Below are positions 20,582 through 29,957 of a DNA stretch of 64,000 nt, piece by piece. The notes under the pieces are model-generated. The model did no database searches. It was not told the DNA's origin and worked only from the letters and a program-made list of their open reading frames with translations. Position 1 is the first letter of the stretch, and each line of letters starts with the position of its first letter. Origin of the DNA: Desulfurispirillum indicum S5 (GTDB lineage: Bacteria > Chrysiogenota > Chrysiogenetes > Chrysiogenales > Chrysiogenaceae); contig NC_014836.1 in the NCBI RefSeq assembly GCF_000177635.2, positions 2,340,001 through 2,404,000 of the forward strand. The letters run 5' to 3'. The translations under genes and the position numbers were made by a program.

Positions 20582-21745
20582 ATGCCAGCACCCCATCATC
20601 CCCATAAACCCGCCACCCTCCTCGTTCACCAGGCCGTCGACCGCGACCCCCACACCGGCGCCTCCGCCGTGCCTATCTATCAGGCGTCCACCTTCCACCA
20701 CCCCGGCGGTGAGTGCGGACAATACGAGTACAGCCGGGGCGCCAATCCCACCCGCGAGAACGTGGAGCAGACCATCGCCCTGCTGGAGGGCGGCATCCAG
20801 GGCTTTGCCACCAGCTCCGGCATGGCAGCCATCGGCGTTGCCCTGAGCCTTCTGCACAGTGGCGACCACCTTATCGTCCCCAGCGATCTCTACGGCGGCA
20901 CCTACCGCTACGTCACCAGCGTCCTGCCCCAGCAGGGCATCCAGTGTTCTTTTGTCAATACCGCGGATCTCGAAGCGCTGAAAGCGGCCCTGCAGCCCAA
21001 CACCAGAGGTATTCTGCTGGAAACGCCCTCCAACCCCCTCTTCACCATCGCCGATATCCGCGCTGTGGCAGAGCTGGCCAGAGAGAGAAATATTCTCACC
21101 TTTATCGACAACACCTTTATGACGCCCCTGTTGCAACGGCCCATTCCCCTGGGCATCGATGTGGTCATCCACAGCGCCACCAAGTTCCTGGGCGGCCACA
21201 GCGACCTGCTGGCCGGGCTGGTAACCACCGCCGACCCCGAGCTGGCCAAAGCCCTCAAGCGCTTCCATAATTCCTTCGGAGCTGTGCTCTCCCCCTTTGA
21301 CAGCTTCCTGCTGGCGCGGGGCATGAAGACCCTCAAAATCCGCCTGGAGACCGCCCAGAGCAATGCCGGCGACCTGGCTCTGCGTCTGCAGCAGCACCCC
21401 AGCGTGTCAAAAGTGTATTACCCCGGCCTCAGCGACTTTGCCCAGGCCGATACCCACTTCCGTCAGGCCAATGGCCCCGGTGCCGTACTCGCCTTTGAAC
21501 TCGCATCATCGGATCAGGTAAAGGCCCTTCTGCGCAAACTGCAGCTGCCCATCATCGCCCCCAGCCTCGGTGGCGTGGAAACCATCGTCACCCACTGTTG
21601 GAGCATGTCCCACGCCGCCATACCCGCCGAGGTCAAGAAGGAAATGGGCATTTCGCCCACCCTGATCCGCCTGTGTGCTGGCATTGAAGATGTGGATGAC
21701 CTGTGGCATGATCTGGAGCAGGCACTGCACACCCCAGGCAGCTGA
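20582..21745 (+). CDS. metC: MetC-like cystathionine beta-lyase
   Basis: PLP enzyme that would cleave cystathionine to homocysteine, following MetI. The ATG at 20582 has AGGAGG 5 nt upstream. The 387 residues contain YEYSRGANPTRENVE, ATSSGMAAIGVAL, and HSATKFLGGHSDLLAG with the PLP Lys near residue 200. Overall style matches Bacillus MetC. It is the partner of metI, 352 bp downstream and separated by an L fragment, so cotranscription from the riboswitch leader is possible but not assured. Cystathionine gamma-lyase activity is an alternative within this family. Confidence 0.85.
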   Translation: MPAPHHPHKPATLLVHQAVDRDPHTGASAVPIYQASTFHHPGGECGQYEYSRGANPTRENVEQTIALLEGGIQGFATSSGMAAIGVALSLLHSGDHLIVPSDLYGGTYRYVTSVLPQQGIQCSFVNTADLEALKAALQPNTRGILLETPSNPLFTIADIRAVAELARERNILTFIDNTFMTPLLQRPIPLGIDVVIHSATKFLGGHSDLLAGLVTTADPELAKALKRFHNSFGAVLSPFDSFLLARGMKTLKIRLETAQSNAGDLALRLQQHPSVSKVYYPGLSDFAQADTHFRQANGPGAVLAFELASSDQVKALLRKLQLPIIAPSLGGVETIVTHCWSMSHAAIPAEVKKEMGISPTLIRLCAGIEDVDDLWHDLEQALHTPGS

Positions 21746-21833
21746 AAAACGCCTCTGTGCCTGCTGGTCAATACAGCGTGAAGAGTTACAGCAGGCTTTC
21801 CTTTGCGCGAAAAATCCGTTACAAGTTCTTCCC

Positions 21834-23264
21834 ATGAAAACCCCGTTGCGCTTCATCATACTGCTGCTGAGCGTTGTCATGCTGAGCCAGCCTCAGCTGG
21901 CGCGGGCCTGCGCGCTCTGCTCCGCCTTTGACGGCGTGGTCTTCCCGCGCTTTCACCTGGAAATGGATGACGACGTTCTGCAGGCGATCCAGGTCACCTG
22001 GCGCTTTTCCCCCTCCTTCACCGAAGTCCTGCGCCACCTCAGCAGCGAAGCATCCGACGCCAACCAGGCACGGCAGAGGCTCCTGCACGCCTTTGAAGCC
22101 GACATCGTCCCCTACGAATACCTCACCCGCATTACCATCAACAGCCAGCCGTTTCCGGTGCGCGCCGTGGAAAATTCTCACTTCACCTTTGAGGGGGATG
22201 TTTCCGCATACCACTTTACGATCCCCATCCATATGCCCGTCAGCGGTGAACTCAGCCTGGAACTGGAATTCTTCGATCCCCGCCGCTTTCTGGGCTTTTT
22301 CTTCCGCCCCGAGGGACTCAGCCACACCATTCCCGAAAATTACGGCGTTGAGCACAACCTGAATTCCTACCCCCATACGCTGGTGTTGCGCATCGCCCCG
22401 GGCATTGCCAGCACAGAAACGGAAGTTGCCGTCACGCGCGACGACTCCCCGGCGGGCTGGTACGACCGGATGCTCGACTCCCTGCGCCAGACACTGCGCA
22501 TGGCCAGCGAAACCATTCAGTCCCATATGCGCGCCATCCGCGACGAAGGCAGCGTGGCGGCGGCTCTCTCCCTGATCATCTTCTCCTTTTTCTACGGCCT
22601 GCTCCACGCAGCCGGCCCTGGCCATGGCAAAAGTCTGGTGGCCTCCTATTTCCTCGCGGGACACCACAACTACGCCAAGGCGGCCTCCATGGCCCTGTTC
22701 ATCGGCATCGTCCACGTCTTTTCGGCGTTCATCTTCACCTTTTTCCTGCTGCACCTGCTGAACATGCTGCTGACCACGGCCCTCCACCAAACCACCAACC
22801 TGCTGACCCCCGTTTCCGGTGCCATCATCATACTGATCGCAGCACACCTGGCCTACACCCGCCTGCGAGCCCGCTGGAAAGTCCGGCAGCAAAACAGCTC
22901 CGGTTACCCTCAACCCCACCATGGCCTGCACCAGGGCCATGCCTGTGGCTGCTCCTCCTGCAGTGGTGGAGGACGCACTTCCGACGCCATGCTGGTGATT
23001 TCGGCAGGTATTGTGCCCTGTCCCGGCACCATCACCATTTTCCTCTTCGCCCTCTCCATGGGCCTGTACACCATTGGTTTCCTGGCCGCCGCCGCCATGA
23101 GCCTGGGCATGGGAATTATTATTTTCGCGGCGGCAGCCCTGAGCATCATTGCCAGAAATGTGCTCAGCCATGCCTTCCAGCCCCTGGCCACCTTCGTGGA
23201 ATATACCAGTATCATCTGCATAGCCCTGCTGGGAGTGCTGCTGATACTGAGCAGCATGGGCTGA
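21834..23264 (+). CDS. DUF1007-NicO fusion, predicted nickel/cobalt (or other metal) membrane transporter
   Basis: 476 residues. The ATG at 21834 starts a signal peptide (MKTPLRFIILLLSVVMLSQ); the frame is open upstream but without signal. Residues 25-225 form a periplasmic DUF1007-type domain. The C-terminal half is a NicO/RcnA-type transporter: FYGLLHAAGPGHGKSLVASYF with the His and Gly residues typical of the family, a His/Cys-rich loop (HHGLHQGHACGCSSCSGG) before a later helix, and SAGIVPCPGTITIFLF. Six helices are apparent. It begins 88 bp after metC. Whether it imports or exports cannot be told. Confidence 0.8.
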   Translation: MKTPLRFIILLLSVVMLSQPQLARACALCSAFDGVVFPRFHLEMDDDVLQAIQVTWRFSPSFTEVLRHLSSEASDANQARQRLLHAFEADIVPYEYLTRITINSQPFPVRAVENSHFTFEGDVSAYHFTIPIHMPVSGELSLELEFFDPRRFLGFFFRPEGLSHTIPENYGVEHNLNSYPHTLVLRIAPGIASTETEVAVTRDDSPAGWYDRMLDSLRQTLRMASETIQSHMRAIRDEGSVAAALSLIIFSFFYGLLHAAGPGHGKSLVASYFLAGHHNYAKAASMALFIGIVHVFSAFIFTFFLLHLLNMLLTTALHQTTNLLTPVSGAIIILIAAHLAYTRLRARWKVRQQNSSGYPQPHHGLHQGHACGCSSCSGGGRTSDAMLVISAGIVPCPGTITIFLFALSMGLYTIGFLAAAAMSLGMGIIIFAAAALSIIARNVLSHAFQPLATFVEYTSIICIALLGVLLILSSMG

Positions 23265-23393
23265 ATCTGTCACGACAGTCCACGGAATTAGTGGTGCGAA
23301 ACTTTACCACTTGCTCTATACTCACGCACAACGGTTCGCAAAATGAACCATGTTGCTTTTGCCACGGTCACTTACCTTATCTCAGGAGGCCTT

Positions 23394-24809
23394 ATGGACA
23401 AACCAGCCTATAATTACGACATTGTCCGCAGCTATACCCACTGGAGTATTCTGTGGGGGGTAGTCGCCATTCTGGTTGGCATACTGATTTCCTTCCAGTT
23501 CGTCTTGCCCCAGCTCAACTTCGCCCCATATTTCACCTACGGACGCCTGCGACCCATTCACACCAATGGCGCCCTGCTGGGCTGGACCCTGTGTGCCATC
23601 TTCGCCCTCTATTTTTATATGGTACAGCGCCTGTGCCGCGTCCCCATCTGGAGTGAAAAGCTGGCTCGCATCCAGCTGTGGCTCTTCAACAGCATTATCA
23701 TCCTGGGCGTCGTTACCCTGCTGCTTGGCTTCAACTCCACCAAGGAGTACCACGAGCTGGAGTGGCCCCTGGATATCCTTGTGGTCGTCATGTGGGTGAT
23801 GTTCGCCGTGAACATCTTTATGACCATTTTCAAGCGCAAAGAAGAGCAGATGTACGTGAGCCTGTGGTTCATGATGGCCTCCATCGTGGCCATCGCCATA
23901 CTCTATATCGTCAACGGCCTGGCCGTTCCCGCTTCCCTGTTCAAGTCCTACTCGGTCTTTGCGGGAACCAACGATGCCAATGTGCAGTGGTGGTATGGCC
24001 ATAACATGGTAGCCATGCTGCTGACAGCACCACCCCTGGCCGTCTTCTACTACTTTCTGCCAAAATCCACCGGTGTGCCCATCTACAGCCACCGCCTCTC
24101 CATTATCGCCTTCTGGAGCCTGATCTTCATGTACCTGTGGACCGGTGCCCACCACCTGCTGTGGACCCCCGTTCCCGACTGGGTACAGACGCTGGCCATC
24201 GCCTTCTCCATCATGCTCATCGCGCCTTCGTGGGCCTCGGTCATTAACGGTTATCTCTCCATGAATGGCCAGTGGCAGCAGATGCGCACCAACTACCTGG
24301 TGAAATTCTTTATCCTGGGCATCACCTTCTATGGCCTGCAGACCCTGCAGGGGCCCATGCAGGCCATCCGCTCCTTCTCGGGCTTCATCCACTATACCGA
24401 ATGGGTGCCTGGCCACGTCCATATGGGCGCCCTGGGCTGGGTCTCCCTGGTGATGTTCGGCGCCATCTACTATCTGGCCCCCAAGCTCTACGGTCGCGAA
24501 CTCTACAGCATTCCCCTGGCCAACGCCCACTTCTGGCTGGTGCTCGTCGGACAGCTCATCTACTCGGTCAGCCTGTGGATCGCCGGGCTGCAGCAGGCAT
24601 CCATGTGGCACAGCATCAACGCCGACGGCAGCCTGACCTACACCTTCTCGGAAACCGTGGCCGCCATGTACCCCTACTGGTGGGTACGCGCCGTCAGTGG
24701 CGTCATCTACCTGGCCGGCGTCATCCTCTTCGTCTACAACCTCGTCATGACCGCGCGGGGGCCGCGTGAGACGGTTCACGCCACCAACCTTGCCGGAAAG
24801 GAGGCCTGA
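23394..24809 (+). CDS. ccoN: Cytochrome c oxidase cbb3-type, subunit I
   Basis: Haem-copper catalytic subunit of the high-affinity cbb3 oxidase in the inner membrane. The ATG at 23394 has AGGAGG 5 nt upstream. In 471 residues about 12 helices are visible; ligands include His in RPIHTNGALLGW (low-spin haem b), WWYGHNMVAMLLT (Cu-B region with the crosslinking Tyr nearby), TGAHHLLWTP, and GHVHMGALGW (haem b3 and b). It heads ccoNOQP. A GGTGCGAAACTT sequence like the L element end lies at 23293, about 100 bp upstream. TATACT at 23317 could be a -10, but no good -35 was found. Confidence 0.96.
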   Translation: MDKPAYNYDIVRSYTHWSILWGVVAILVGILISFQFVLPQLNFAPYFTYGRLRPIHTNGALLGWTLCAIFALYFYMVQRLCRVPIWSEKLARIQLWLFNSIIILGVVTLLLGFNSTKEYHELEWPLDILVVVMWVMFAVNIFMTIFKRKEEQMYVSLWFMMASIVAIAILYIVNGLAVPASLFKSYSVFAGTNDANVQWWYGHNMVAMLLTAPPLAVFYYFLPKSTGVPIYSHRLSIIAFWSLIFMYLWTGAHHLLWTPVPDWVQTLAIAFSIMLIAPSWASVINGYLSMNGQWQQMRTNYLVKFFILGITFYGLQTLQGPMQAIRSFSGFIHYTEWVPGHVHMGALGWVSLVMFGAIYYLAPKLYGRELYSIPLANAHFWLVLVGQLIYSVSLWIAGLQQASMWHSINADGSLTYTFSETVAAMYPYWWVRAVSGVIYLAGVILFVYNLVMTARGPRETVHATNLAGKEA

Positions 24810-24810
24810 G

Positions 24811-25665
24811 ATGTGGGAAAAGAAACCACTGCTCTTCCTGATTCTGGCCACCATGACCATCCTGGTGGGTACCATCGTCACCATGGTGCTGCCTTTCTTC
24901 TGGGTAAACACCGAAGCCGACCGCATTGAAACCGTCACCCCCTACAGCCCGCTGGAGCAGGCCGGCAGGGACATCTATATCCGCGAAGGCTGCAACAACT
25001 GTCACACCCAGACTGTCCGTCCCCTGGTGGCCGAAGTGCTGCGCTACGGCGAATACTCAAAATCCGGTGAGTACATCTACGACCGTCCCCACCTGTGGGG
25101 CTCCCGCCGCACCGGGCCCGACCTGGCCCGGGTAGGTGGCAAGTATCCCGACGCCTGGCACTACCAGCACATGGCCGAACCCGCTTCCATGTTCCCCAGA
25201 ACCAATATGCCCGCCTACCCCTTCCTGAGTGACCGCACGCTGAACCCCCGCAGCGTGGAGCGCAACATGCGCGCCCTGGGCCTGCCCTACACGGACGCGG
25301 AAATCGCCGCCCTGGAAGGCAAAACAGAAATGGACGCCATGGTTGCCTACATGCAGAAGCTGGGCACCGGCATTCCCTGGCGCGAAGCCGCCCGCACCAC
25401 CTTCGTGGGCGAGTTGACCAACCCCTATAGCGGTGACGCCTCCGTCCTGCCAGAAGCCCGCCAGATCTACGCCCAGAACTGCGCCGCCTGCCATGGCGCC
25501 GAGCTGCAGGGAGGCATAGGCCCGGCCCTGCGCGGCGGTGGCAAAAGTGAAAGCCAGCTCTATGAAATCACCTACAACGGTATCATGGAAAAAGGCATGC
25601 CCGGCTACTCCCACCTGGGCTCCGACCGCGTCTGGAAGCTGATTACCCTGATGAAGGCCGAGTGA
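24811..25665 (+). CDS. ccoO: cbb3 oxidase subunit II with a second cytochrome c domain
   Basis: Membrane-anchored cytochrome c of the cbb3 oxidase. The ATG at 24811 immediately follows the ccoN stop. After one N-terminal helix the usual monohaem domain has CNNCH (residues 61-65) with the Met ligand in PRTNMPAYPFL. A second domain follows with CAACHG (residues 224-229) and GMPGYSHLG. The 284-residue length exceeds the usual 200-240, because of this extra C-terminal domain. CcoP in the same operon has one haem motif instead of two, so the total stays at three. The extra domain looks like the first domain of a standard CcoP. Confidence 0.92.
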   Translation: MWEKKPLLFLILATMTILVGTIVTMVLPFFWVNTEADRIETVTPYSPLEQAGRDIYIREGCNNCHTQTVRPLVAEVLRYGEYSKSGEYIYDRPHLWGSRRTGPDLARVGGKYPDAWHYQHMAEPASMFPRTNMPAYPFLSDRTLNPRSVERNMRALGLPYTDAEIAALEGKTEMDAMVAYMQKLGTGIPWREAARTTFVGELTNPYSGDASVLPEARQIYAQNCAACHGAELQGGIGPALRGGGKSESQLYEITYNGIMEKGMPGYSHLGSDRVWKLITLMKAE

Positions 25666-25817
25666 TGATCTGGGGCAGCATTTTCTACCTGGCCACCACC
25701 TTCATCCTCTTTGGCATCTTTGTGGCCATCGTGGTGTACACTTACAGCCGCAAGAACCGCAAACGACTGGAAGACCCCAAGTACCGCATGCTCGACGACG
25801 AAGACAAGCAGGAGTGA
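25665..25817 (+). CDS. ccoQ: cbb3 oxidase subunit CcoQ
   Basis: Small single-helix protein of 50 residues (MIWGSIFYLATTFILF then FGIFVAIVVYTYSRKNR). It is too short for many gene callers. Its ATG overlaps the ccoO stop in TGATG. The tail is acidic (DPKYRMLDDEDKQE) and resembles the C-terminus of CcoS encoded at 36686. In other species CcoQ stabilises the complex. Confidence 0.88.
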   Translation: MIWGSIFYLATTFILFGIFVAIVVYTYSRKNRKRLEDPKYRMLDDEDKQE

Positions 25818-25821
25818 AGAC

Positions 25822-26316
25822 ATGAGCGACAACCATGACAACCACGAAATAGACGGCATCCGCGAAGACCGTAAAAAGAACCCGCCCACCTACTACCTCA
25901 TTCTGCTGGCGGGCCTGGTGATCTGGGCCATCGGCTACATGGGCTACCACTTCATCAGCGGCTGGAATCAGGAAGACGCCTTTGCCCAGCGCTTGGAGGC
26001 CCATAAGGAACGCACCGCCCAGCAGCAGGGCAGCGAACCCCAGGCAGCTCCGGCCAGCAATGACCCTGCCAGCATCAAACGCGGCAAAGACCTCTACGAC
26101 AATCAGTGCGCCATGTGCCACGGCCAGGGTGGCGGTGGTGGCTTTGCCACCGACCTGACCATCAAGAGCCGTTACAAGTACGGCTTTGACCGTGACGCTG
26201 TCTTCCAGAGCATCCGCGAAGGACGCCCCGGCGGCATGCCCTCGTCGGCCAACCTGCTCTCCCAACGCCAGATAGACGACATTACCAACTACGTCATATC
26301 GGTTATCAGGGAATAG
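25822..26316 (+). CDS. ccoP: cbb3 oxidase subunit III, short monohaem form
   Basis: The 164-residue protein starts at 25822 after GAAGAC, with an N-terminal cytoplasmic segment, one helix (YYLILLAGLVIWAIG) and a single CAMCHG (residues 96-101). Usual CcoP is about 290-320 residues with two haem c domains. Here the second domain only is present; the Met ligand may be in GMPSSANLL. The operon ends at a good terminator. Together with the dihaem CcoO this suggests domain relocation. Confidence 0.9.
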   Translation: MSDNHDNHEIDGIREDRKKNPPTYYLILLAGLVIWAIGYMGYHFISGWNQEDAFAQRLEAHKERTAQQQGSEPQAAPASNDPASIKRGKDLYDNQCAMCHGQGGGGGFATDLTIKSRYKYGFDRDAVFQSIREGRPGGMPSSANLLSQRQIDDITNYVISVIRE

Positions 26317-26384: not shown

Positions 26385-27635
26385 ATGCCCGCCACCCTGA
26401 CCCCCAAACGACGCGCCATCCAGTGGTTGCTGGTCATCACCGCCCTCACCATTCCCTTTATCGAAATATCCAGCGGCCCCCTGCTGCGCATGGACTTTGC
26501 CGCTGGCAGGCTGCACCTCTTCGGCATCACCATCGCCTCCCACCAGATACTCCTGCTGCTGCCCCTGACCCTGGCCCTCATCCTGCTCTTCGTACTGATC
26601 ACCATTATCCTGGGACGCGCCTGGTGCGGCTGGTTCTGCCCCCAGACCCTGCTGATGAATATAAGTGAATGCACCGCCCGTCGACTGGGACTTCAGGTCA
26701 AAGGGGGAAACGTCTCCGGCAGCGCTTGGCGTAAAACCCTCTTCCACCTGACAAACCTCATCCTCGCCCTCCTGGTCAGCGCCAACCTCGTCTGGTATTT
26801 TCTGGCACCAGCGACCTTTTTCCAGCGCCTGCTCTCATGGGAACTGGGAGCTGCCGCCACCATGGGCTGGCTTCTCAGCGCGACCACCATCTTCATAAGC
26901 CTCAGCCTGCTGCGACGCACCTTCTGCACCCAGATATGCCCCTATGGACGCTTCCAGACCACCCTGCTGACCCCCGCCACCCTGACCCTGCAGTACCACC
27001 CCGCCCACGCCCACCGCTGCATCCGCTGCAACGCCTGCGTGCGCGCCTGCCCCACCGGCATCGACATCCGGGAAGGCTACCAGATCGAATGCATCAACTG
27101 CGGCAATTGCCTGGACGCCTGTCGCCAGGTCATGGCCCGCAAGAACGAAAGCGGCATCATCCGCTACACCTTCGGCATTGACGACCAGCCATGGCCCAAG
27201 CTCTTCAGCACTCCCGTACTGCTCATCGGCAGCGTATTCCTCATCGCCACCACCGCCTTCGTCACCATAGCCACCAACCAATCGGACACCAGCCTCACCA
27301 TCCGCCGCTCCGCCACCATCGAAAGCCGCCTGCTCTCCGAAAACCGGCAGATCACCTTCTACACCGCCCGTATCGCCAACCGCAGCCAGCACGAGCGCAC
27401 CTATCAACTGCGCCTGGCCCCCGCCGATCAGGAACACTTCCACCTGCCCGGAATCCCTCCCACCATAATCATGAGTGCCGGCGAAAACCGGGAAATCACC
27501 ATCGCCCTGCAGACCGCAACACCCCCGCCAAAAGCAAACGCCACCCTGCAGCTGGTGCAGGATGGCGATGTGGTACATGAGATGACACTGCGGGTGGTGG
27601 AAGTTCAGGATCAGCCGCAGCCCCACATGGAGTAA
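26385..27635 (+). CDS. ccoG: cbb3 oxidase accessory protein CcoG (FixG/RdxA)
   Basis: Membrane ferredoxin-like protein of 416 residues involved in copper handling during cbb3 assembly. Start MPATLTPKRRAIQW; four to five helices; ligands in RAWCGWFCPQT, then two [4Fe-4S] motifs, CIRCNACVRACPTG and CINCGNCLDACR. The C-terminal part after about 290 is a periplasmic Ig-like domain. It is 68 bp after ccoP. Its last 25 bp overlap convergently with the lipoprotein gene on the opposite strand. In most genomes ccoG is followed by ccoH-ccoI-ccoS; here these come 6 kb later. Confidence 0.95.
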   Translation: MPATLTPKRRAIQWLLVITALTIPFIEISSGPLLRMDFAAGRLHLFGITIASHQILLLLPLTLALILLFVLITIILGRAWCGWFCPQTLLMNISECTARRLGLQVKGGNVSGSAWRKTLFHLTNLILALLVSANLVWYFLAPATFFQRLLSWELGAAATMGWLLSATTIFISLSLLRRTFCTQICPYGRFQTTLLTPATLTLQYHPAHAHRCIRCNACVRACPTGIDIREGYQIECINCGNCLDACRQVMARKNESGIIRYTFGIDDQPWPKLFSTPVLLIGSVFLIATTAFVTIATNQSDTSLTIRRSATIESRLLSENRQITFYTARIANRSQHERTYQLRLAPADQEHFHLPGIPPTIIMSAGENREITIALQTATPPPKANATLQLVQDGDVVHEMTLRVVEVQDQPQPHME

Positions 27636-28797: not shown

Positions 28798-29610
28798 CTA
28801 TGCCGCAAGCTTTTCCTCCTTTATTCTAAATACTGACATGTACATTTTGTCTGGTGTTCTGTAGTCAAGAGACTGATGAAACCTTCTGCTATTGTAGAAG
28901 GTGAAGTATCGCTTTACTCCTTCCTTGAGTTCGGTCATGTTCTCATAGCATTTGATATAGATGTTTTCGTATTTCACACTGCGCCAAAGGCGCTCTACGT
29001 AGACATTGTCAAGGGCTCTGCCTTTGCCGTCCATGCTGATTCTGATGCCGTGACTCTTGAGTCTTTGCGTAAATGCCTCTGAGCTATATTGGCTTCCCTG
29101 GTCGGTGTTGAATATCCCAGGGACTCCATAGCGTCTGATGGCTTCATCCAGTGCTTCGAGGCAAAAGCAGGTATCCATGGTGTTGGAGATGCGCCAGCTC
29201 AGTACTTTGCGGCTGAACAGATCTATGATAGCTGTCAGGTACACCGTCTTGGCGCCAAGCTTCAAGTACGTGATATCAGTGGCCCAAACCTGGTTGGGAA
29301 GCCAGATATTCAATCCTCGCAGCAAGTACGGATACTTCTTGTGCTGCTTGTTGGCCCGTGAAAGATTGGGTTTGGGGTAAATCGCACGCAGCCCATGCTT
29401 GTGCATAATGCGCCGCACCTGTTTGGAACTCACGGCCATATCATGTTCCTCATTGAGCTGTATGGCTATCTTGCGATAACCGAAGGTGGGAATGTCTTGC
29501 AGCACCCTGAGAACAACCTTCAGTATTTCAAGATCAGATTCCTCCAGCGCCGACGAACGTGACTGGTAATAGTAGGTCGAGTGGCTGATGCCAAGCAACT
29601 TGCACTGCAT
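28798..29610 (-). CDS. IS3-family transposase, OrfB (DDE integrase domain)
   Basis: 270 residues counted from the ATG at 29610. Catalytic acids appear in WATDITYLK, FNTDQGSQYSS and a Glu in NVYVERLWRSVKYE; the core is of the retroviral integrase kind. The frame is open upstream and continues into orfA by a -1 shift, passing through [15 protein letters not shown], a segment usual in OrfAB fusions. So the active transposase is likely an OrfAB fusion of about 380 residues, with OrfB alone as a possible minor product. Confidence 0.92.
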   Translation of the reverse strand: MQCKLLGISHSTYYYQSRSSALEESDLEILKVVLRVLQDIPTFGYRKIAIQLNEEHDMAVSSKQVRRIMHKHGLRAIYPKPNLSRANKQHKKYPYLLRGLNIWLPNQVWATDITYLKLGAKTVYLTAIIDLFSRKVLSWRISNTMDTCFCLEALDEAIRRYGVPGIFNTDQGSQYSSEAFTQRLKSHGIRISMDGKGRALDNVYVERLWRSVKYENIYIKCYENMTELKEGVKRYFTFYNSRRFHQSLDYRTPDKMYMSVFRIKEEKLAA

Positions 29611-29639: not shown

Positions 29640-29957
29640 CTATGGCATTTTTGGCTCGTGACCGTAGAGTTGCACATACTTTTTTTTTAGGAAGTCCTTC
29701 TCAACCTGAAGCATGCCAATTTGCTTGTAAAGGGCGTCAACATTGCGATCCTCTTTGTCCTTGCCCTTCTTCTTGTTGGGACGATCGAATATATCAGGCA
29801 TGGCTTCCAGAGCACGCTTCTTCCACTCCTTGATCTGCTGGGGATGAACCTCATACTCCTGAGCCAGCTCCTGAACAGTCTTTTCTTCACGCAGCGCCTC
29901 AAGGGCTACCTTGGCTTTGAACTCATTGGTAAATGTCTTACGTTGCACTATAGTCAC
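29640..29957 (-). CDS. IS3-family transposase, OrfA (helix-turn-helix)
   Basis: 105 residues with the HTH_Tnp_1 pattern [18 protein letters not shown] and [18 protein letters not shown], then a basic/coiled-coil segment with leucine-like spacing. It binds the IS ends. The ATG at 29957 lies within 90 bp of the right end of the element. Near its end the codons for LKKK contain nine A residues, where the frameshift to orfB would happen. Confidence 0.92.
29679..29688 (-). promoter_or_regulatory. Programmed -1 frameshift site
   Basis: A run of nine A followed by G on the minus strand. OrfB lies in the -1 frame and is open from here to its ATG at 29610, so slippage gives an OrfAB fusion. Confidence 0.75.

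Follow-up and report, generated by a model that had tools for sequence, protein, structure and literature searches.

The cbb3 oxidases are bacterial enzymes for respiration at low oxygen. In the canonical ones, such as those of Pseudomonas stutzeri (3mk7) and Rhodobacter capsulatus (6xkw), CcoO has one haem c and CcoP has two. Electrons in the R. capsulatus enzyme pass through cp2, cp1, co, b and b3-CuB in that order (PMC7876108). The stability of cbb3 oxidases requires interactions between CcoQ and CcoP, according to the title of a work cited in PMC13186404. Natural structural variation of CcoP has been reported in Neisseria, where it concerns CcoP only (PMC2924362).

The nearest description of the CcoO considered here is a family model. 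NCBIfam NF011054/PRK14486 carries the name 'putative bifunctional cbb3-type cytochrome c oxidase subunit II/cytochrome c'. It spans a FixO core and a C-terminal cytochrome c domain over its full length, and it is silent on CcoP. We found no description of such a fused CcoO, or of the CcoP stumps discussed below, in the open-access literature. An older article on how cbb3 oxidases evolved, Ducluzeau et al. 2008, may mention one or the other.

We examined a cbb3 operon in a stretch of 64,000 nucleotides (the window) from Desulfurispirillum indicum S5. The best explanation, to which we give a probability of roughly 0.74, is that it belongs to a cbb3 clade in which CcoO has a haem-bearing addition and the haem of CcoP is optional, and that the operon in the window was gained laterally.

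The cbb3 operon of Desulfurispirillum indicum

Five genes lie on the + strand of the window in the order ccoN, ccoO, ccoQ, ccoP, ccoG. The catalytic subunit, CcoN (488 aa, 23343..24809), matches PF00115 (E 2.4e-105, 353 bits), scores 552 bits over its full length with TIGR00780 (equivalog cut-off 583) and is 65-75% identical to CcoN of Desulfobacterota. The gene that follows, ccoO (24811..25665), encodes a di-haem protein of 284 aa in which a C-terminal cytochrome c domain (Cytochrome_CBB3) is fused to FixO. Its core scores 250 bits with PF02433 and 216 with TIGR00781, where the cut-off is 201, and it has a haem c site. CcoQ (51 aa, 25662..25817) matches PF05545 FixQ with an E-value of 2e-9. 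CcoP (25822..26316) has 164 aa and one haem (PF13442, E 1e-13; FixP_N, E 5e-4). The accessory ferredoxin ccoG/fixG/rdxA (416 aa, 26385..27635) reaches 245 bits with TIGR02745, whose cut-off is 317. CcoN, the haem-bearing FixO core and the ccoNO(Q)P order with ccoG close by are those of a cbb3-type (C-family) oxidase. CcoN, the CcoO core, CcoQ, the CcoP anchor and CcoG are all in common with the canonical enzymes, and in a fold search the CcoO is 46% identical to those of both 3mk7 and 6xkw.

A single contig of 2,928,377 bases makes up the genome. COX1 and FixO each match once in it, and a whole-genome search gave no second ccoN, ccoO or ccoP in the rest of it. The sequence-only reading of this DNA had named a two-haem ccoP elsewhere as one thing that would make its idea of a haem domain moved from CcoP less likely, and none was found. 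D. indicum S5T is recorded as an obligate anaerobe, and its genome is published (PMC3368425).

Several other genes deserve mention. Directly upstream of ccoN (21735-23264) is a nickel/cobalt transporter of the NicO family that bears DUF1007 at its N terminus; it could supply metal to the oxidase. About 1.2 kb downstream of ccoG are two ORFs on the - strand (28798-29610 and 29640-29957), an integrase-like ORF and a short HTH ORF, which when read by eye resemble an IS3-type transposase. Outside the window, at 2910260-2910796 of the contig, is a cytochrome b ORF of 241 aa, with multi-haem cytochromes c and a Rieske-like ORF beside it. These genes may encode a donor complex and are a plausible electron source for the oxidase.

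A second haem domain in CcoO

The translation of 24811-25665 has two CxxCH motifs, at residues 61-65 (GCNNCH) and 224-228 (NCAACH). Pfam recognises two parts: FixO covers residues 2-167 (E 2e-74), and a distinct cytochrome c domain occupies residues 215-279 (PF13442, E 3e-14). The core haem c site is at 24991..25005, and C61, C64 and H65 are invariant in 44 homologues. The additional domain comprises residues 210-284 (25438..25662). In the same 44 homologues its haem c site (25480..25494) has invariant C224, C227 and H228, and M263-P264 is invariant too, so Met263 (25597..25599) is the presumed axial ligand of the second haem. An AlphaFold model gives residues 210-284 a pLDDT of about 83-96, with an overall pTM of 0.73. 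In a fold search the nearest solved structures are canonical cbb3 CcoO chains (e.g. 3mk7_B), with about 195 columns aligned. Since the ligands are invariant and the predicted fold is confident, we regard the C-terminal region as a genuine haem domain. One can imagine the second CxxCH being a chance motif, but the Pfam domain, the invariant ligands and the fold rule this out. The count of two motifs in CcoO and one in a 164-residue CcoP, first made from the letters alone, agrees with both translation and Pfam. The layout is thus two haems c in CcoO and one in CcoP, unlike the canonical mono-haem CcoO with its two-haem CcoP.

This form of CcoO is not new. PRK14486 profile positions 4-288 match residues 1-282 of the window protein with 422.2 bits (E 1.2e-126), and the model matches all 44 members of the fused-CcoO clade that were compared with it, so the layout was already recognised by annotators. 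The window protein falls 25 bits under the equivalog cut-off of 447, and for this reason we do not claim the NCBI equivalog name for it.

A scan of 84,980 species found 248 loci encoding relatives, and the best 80 were kept. Every readable CcoO among the best 80 of 248 is the fused form, although, with loci gathered by similarity to the fused protein, the clade may contain more unfused members than this sample shows (one case turned up, G038/G040). Within those 80 the fused form occurs in Desulfobacterota (Desulfuromonadales, Geobacterales, Desulfobulbales and Deferrisomatales) and Nitrospirota. Many of the sampled loci are from metagenome-assembled genomes. Most CcoO-bearing genomes of the window's own phylum also have the fused form, mostly just 40-51% identical to that of the window. 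The suspicion that the arrangement of two haems in CcoO and one in CcoP is lineage-specific is borne out. A 276-aa CcoO-like protein with a second CxxCH domain (L129, G082) stands further from the fused clade, and a small cytochrome c adjoins it.

Where the additional domain came from

The sequence-only reading proposed that a haem domain had moved from CcoP to CcoO. In this scenario the first (or second) domain of a two-haem CcoP was relocated to the end of CcoO, and the same step shortened CcoP. The count of two plus one haems in the window and in Desulfuromonadales and Geobacterales speaks for such a move. It was checked whether the CcoO domain branches with the first domain of CcoP. Our careful domain tree has 101 domains, 50 of them ordinary CcoP domains, and 84 columns. 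The CcoO C-terminal domains fall outside all ordinary CcoP haem domains, with a split supported at 100/97. The window domain also scores low against canonical proteobacterial CcoP, with 25 bits for domain 1 and 20 bits for domain 2. AU tests on these few columns reject no alternative for its origin (p 0.21-0.56), and they tolerate joining the CcoO domain to CcoP domain 1 (p 0.36) or domain 2 (p 0.35). Furthermore, a one-haem CcoP also occurs beside a one-haem CcoO, which removes the need for an ancestor with two haems. Relocation is therefore without support, and we think it quite improbable.

A second scenario adds a haem instead of moving one: the CcoO domain was copied from the single CcoP haem domain of its own lineage. 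CcoO C-terminal domains score 41-61 bits against the one-haem CcoP of the same clade, above the canonical domains. For the window domain the figures are 41 bits against the clade's own one-haem CcoP and 54 bits against that of the oxidases with fused CcoN-CcoO, and 113 bits against a profile of CcoO C-terminal domains from Desulfobacterota, the window sequence among them. In Nitrospirota, the CcoO and CcoP domains of L111 and L113 are about 50% and about 44% identical (40/78 and 36/82), and they group with 99/84 support. This likeness suggests exchange of domains between the two subunits. However, the constrained alternative is slightly better for these Nitrospirota rows. Elsewhere, the CcoO and CcoP domains of Desulfobacterota do not form one clade, and forcing them together lowers lnL by 15.6 (AU p 0.21). 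We consider duplication rather unlikely. We also considered the reverse transfer, from the CcoO domain to CcoP in L111 and L113, and did not uphold it: the free tree has the 99/84 group, yet the tree with these rows inside CcoP is slightly likelier.

The third scenario is that a periplasmic cytochrome c unrelated to CcoP, of the c551/c553 kind, was joined to the end of CcoO. The separation of the CcoO domains from CcoP domains in the tree is consistent with this, as are matches to models and structures of cytochromes c551, c550, cL and Bacillus c-553. No particular outside family is clearly nearer, though, and the outgroup sample is small. We give outside acquisition a somewhat less than even chance, slightly above that of duplication.

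CcoP with one haem and with none

CcoP of the window has one CxxCH and one cytochrome c domain, and its FixP_N anchor is weak but placed. The anchor part (25822..26010) consists of FixP_N and a transmembrane helix at residues 23-46. The single haem c site, at residues 96-100 (26107..26121), is invariant in 24 homologues. A score of 61 bits with TIGR00782, against a cut-off of 180, sets the protein apart from the canonical di-haem CcoP. Which canonical domain it corresponds to depends on the method: phmmer aligns the anchor and domain 1, while TIGR00782 aligns domain 2, and AU tests give p 0.48-0.50 for either. A fold search with the CcoP model returned generic cytochromes c only.

It must be noted that two haems in CcoP are not the universal norm that had been assumed. 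A one-haem CcoP like that of the window is also found in oxidases with fused CcoN-CcoO (L117-L120 and L175, one of them from Hymenobacter, Bacteroidota), although there CcoO is mono-haem and joined to CcoN, unlike in the window. Thus a one-haem CcoP need not be the product of loss.

CcoP homologues after ccoO were sought with a profile of the CcoP N-terminal anchor. One was found, with or without haem, after every fused CcoO that has enough contig beyond it; in the exceptions, L063 and L074, the contig stops within a few bases of ccoO. The CcoP behind a fused CcoO is either a one-haem protein of 160-190 aa or an anchor of 60-95 aa without haem. The anchor form occurs in about 40% of the sampled relatives, for example in L037, L038, L066, L068, L176-L180 and L184-L187. 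These stump-type oxidases come from the window's own phylum, Desulfobulbaceae and some Nitrospirota. Their CcoO belongs to the same fused clade, and their stumps can be aligned to the anchor part of CcoP in the window, the sole region that they keep.

One could suspect a sequencing or frameshift artefact. Locus L172, from Halomonas, was excluded because its short CcoP may reflect a frameshift. For the stumps as a whole this suspicion is ruled out. The short ORF is closed in about 30 genomes, each of the 21 stumps in the alignment is recognised by FixP_N, and the dN/dS ratios are small. Their median is 0.235 over 55 pairs with dS<2, a value which indicates that the stumps evolve under purifying selection. 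Nor is a complete CcoP encoded elsewhere: there was no match over the cut-off in 16 genomes behind fused loci, nor in same-phylum genomes.

The number of haems is not constant. In a thinned set of 103 loci, 45 have two haems in CcoO and one in CcoP (O2P1), 30 are O2P0, 2 are O3P0, 21 are O1P2 and 5 are O1P1. Both O3P0 loci, L084 (4001-5158) and L181 (G092), have three CxxCH in CcoO and a haem-less CcoP. The two C-terminal CcoO domains are sisters in each (83/90 and 99/85 support), so by the tree the third haem is a tandem duplication within CcoO. Two further loci beyond the 103 are O1P0 (L188 and L189; G038 and G040). They are from 1.3 Mb genomes of the same phylum and encode a mono-haem CcoO of 228 aa and a CcoP stump, with a single haem c site in the operon. 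The earlier idea that a total of three haems is kept does not survive this comparison, as totals within the clade are three (O2P1, O3P0), two (O2P0) and one (O1P0).

History of the operon

A tree of the CcoO core was built without the extra C-terminal domain. All fused CcoO lie on one side of a branch supported at 100/99.4, and a quick tree agrees. This clade spans Desulfobacterota, Nitrospirota and the Deferribacterota/Chrysiogenota group, with the mono-haem pair G038/G040 nested within it. Because the fused proteins are monophyletic on a core that excludes the fused part, the fusion most likely arose once, in the ancestral CcoO of these groups. On this tree the haem number of CcoO changes 4 times and that of CcoP 10 times. 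In the simplest account the CcoO domain was gained once and the CcoP haem was lost repeatedly, while CcoO underwent two tandem duplications and a single secondary loss. Because the tree has no root, we infer the direction of these gains and losses.

The operon in the window does not follow its own family. Its CcoO groups with Desulfobacterota (L039, L043 and L044; 99/94 support). Identity to the nearest Desulfobacterota is 70-75% for CcoN and 66-69% for CcoO, but only about 58% and about 44% to a same-family genome. CcoG shows the same pattern, at 39-48% against 29%. The gene order N-O-Q-P-G is also that of Desulfobacterota, whereas the own-phylum loci that were read have N-O-stump-Q-G. Tree placement, identities and gene order all favour Desulfobacterota, so the operon was probably acquired laterally from a Desulfobacterota-like donor.

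A proposed path for electrons

No structural or kinetic study of a fused-CcoO enzyme was found, and the electron path, haem attachment and oxidase activity are deduced here from sequence. The window enzyme is a C-type oxygen reductase whose CcoO bears an additional C-terminal class-I cytochrome c domain. Electrons from a quinol-cytochrome c system would arrive through periplasmic cytochromes at the CcoP haem and pass to the C-terminal haem of CcoO. From there they would go to the CcoO core haem, haem b and finally haem b3-CuB.

We argue that the CcoO C-terminal haem would be the fixed link in this chain and that the haem of CcoP would serve as an outer relay which can be dispensed with, given that the CcoP haem domain was lost repeatedly among relatives and the anchor was kept. 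If the stump-type enzymes are active, their CcoO C-terminal haem would take electrons directly from periplasmic cytochromes and feed the core haem, since only the two CcoO haems are left there. On the tree, forms with two plus one haems are interspersed with forms with two plus zero, so the window enzyme most likely relies on this fixed link as well. Retention of the anchor in stumps suggests a structural, haem-independent role for the CcoP helix.

What the clade means for cbb3 oxidases

Haem-less CcoP anchors would explain reports of 'partial' cbb3 operons. In a Deferribacter study (2026) cbb3 was described as 'partially encoded': CcoO was given one haem, and evidence of ccoP and ccoQ was lacking (PMC13186404). 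The same-phylum genomes in our sample encode a CcoP stump beside a di-haem CcoO and, in the loci that were read, CcoQ. On that analogy the Deferribacter description is probably an annotation gap: the enzyme would be complete, its haem carried by CcoO and its very small CcoP overlooked by annotation, though the strains may differ from the genomes used here.

We consider it reasonably probable that this is a multi-phylum cbb3 clade in which CcoO gained a haem c and CcoP could then do without its haem part. CcoP would have been reduced to a conserved transmembrane stump on several separate occasions, and the complete enzymes that resulted would have two or even one haem c and operons misread as incomplete. 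What may be new is the graded way in which the clade lost the CcoP haem. The repeated loss is a natural experiment on which haem must serve as the entry point in cbb3 oxidases, and on what the CcoP anchor does in its own right.
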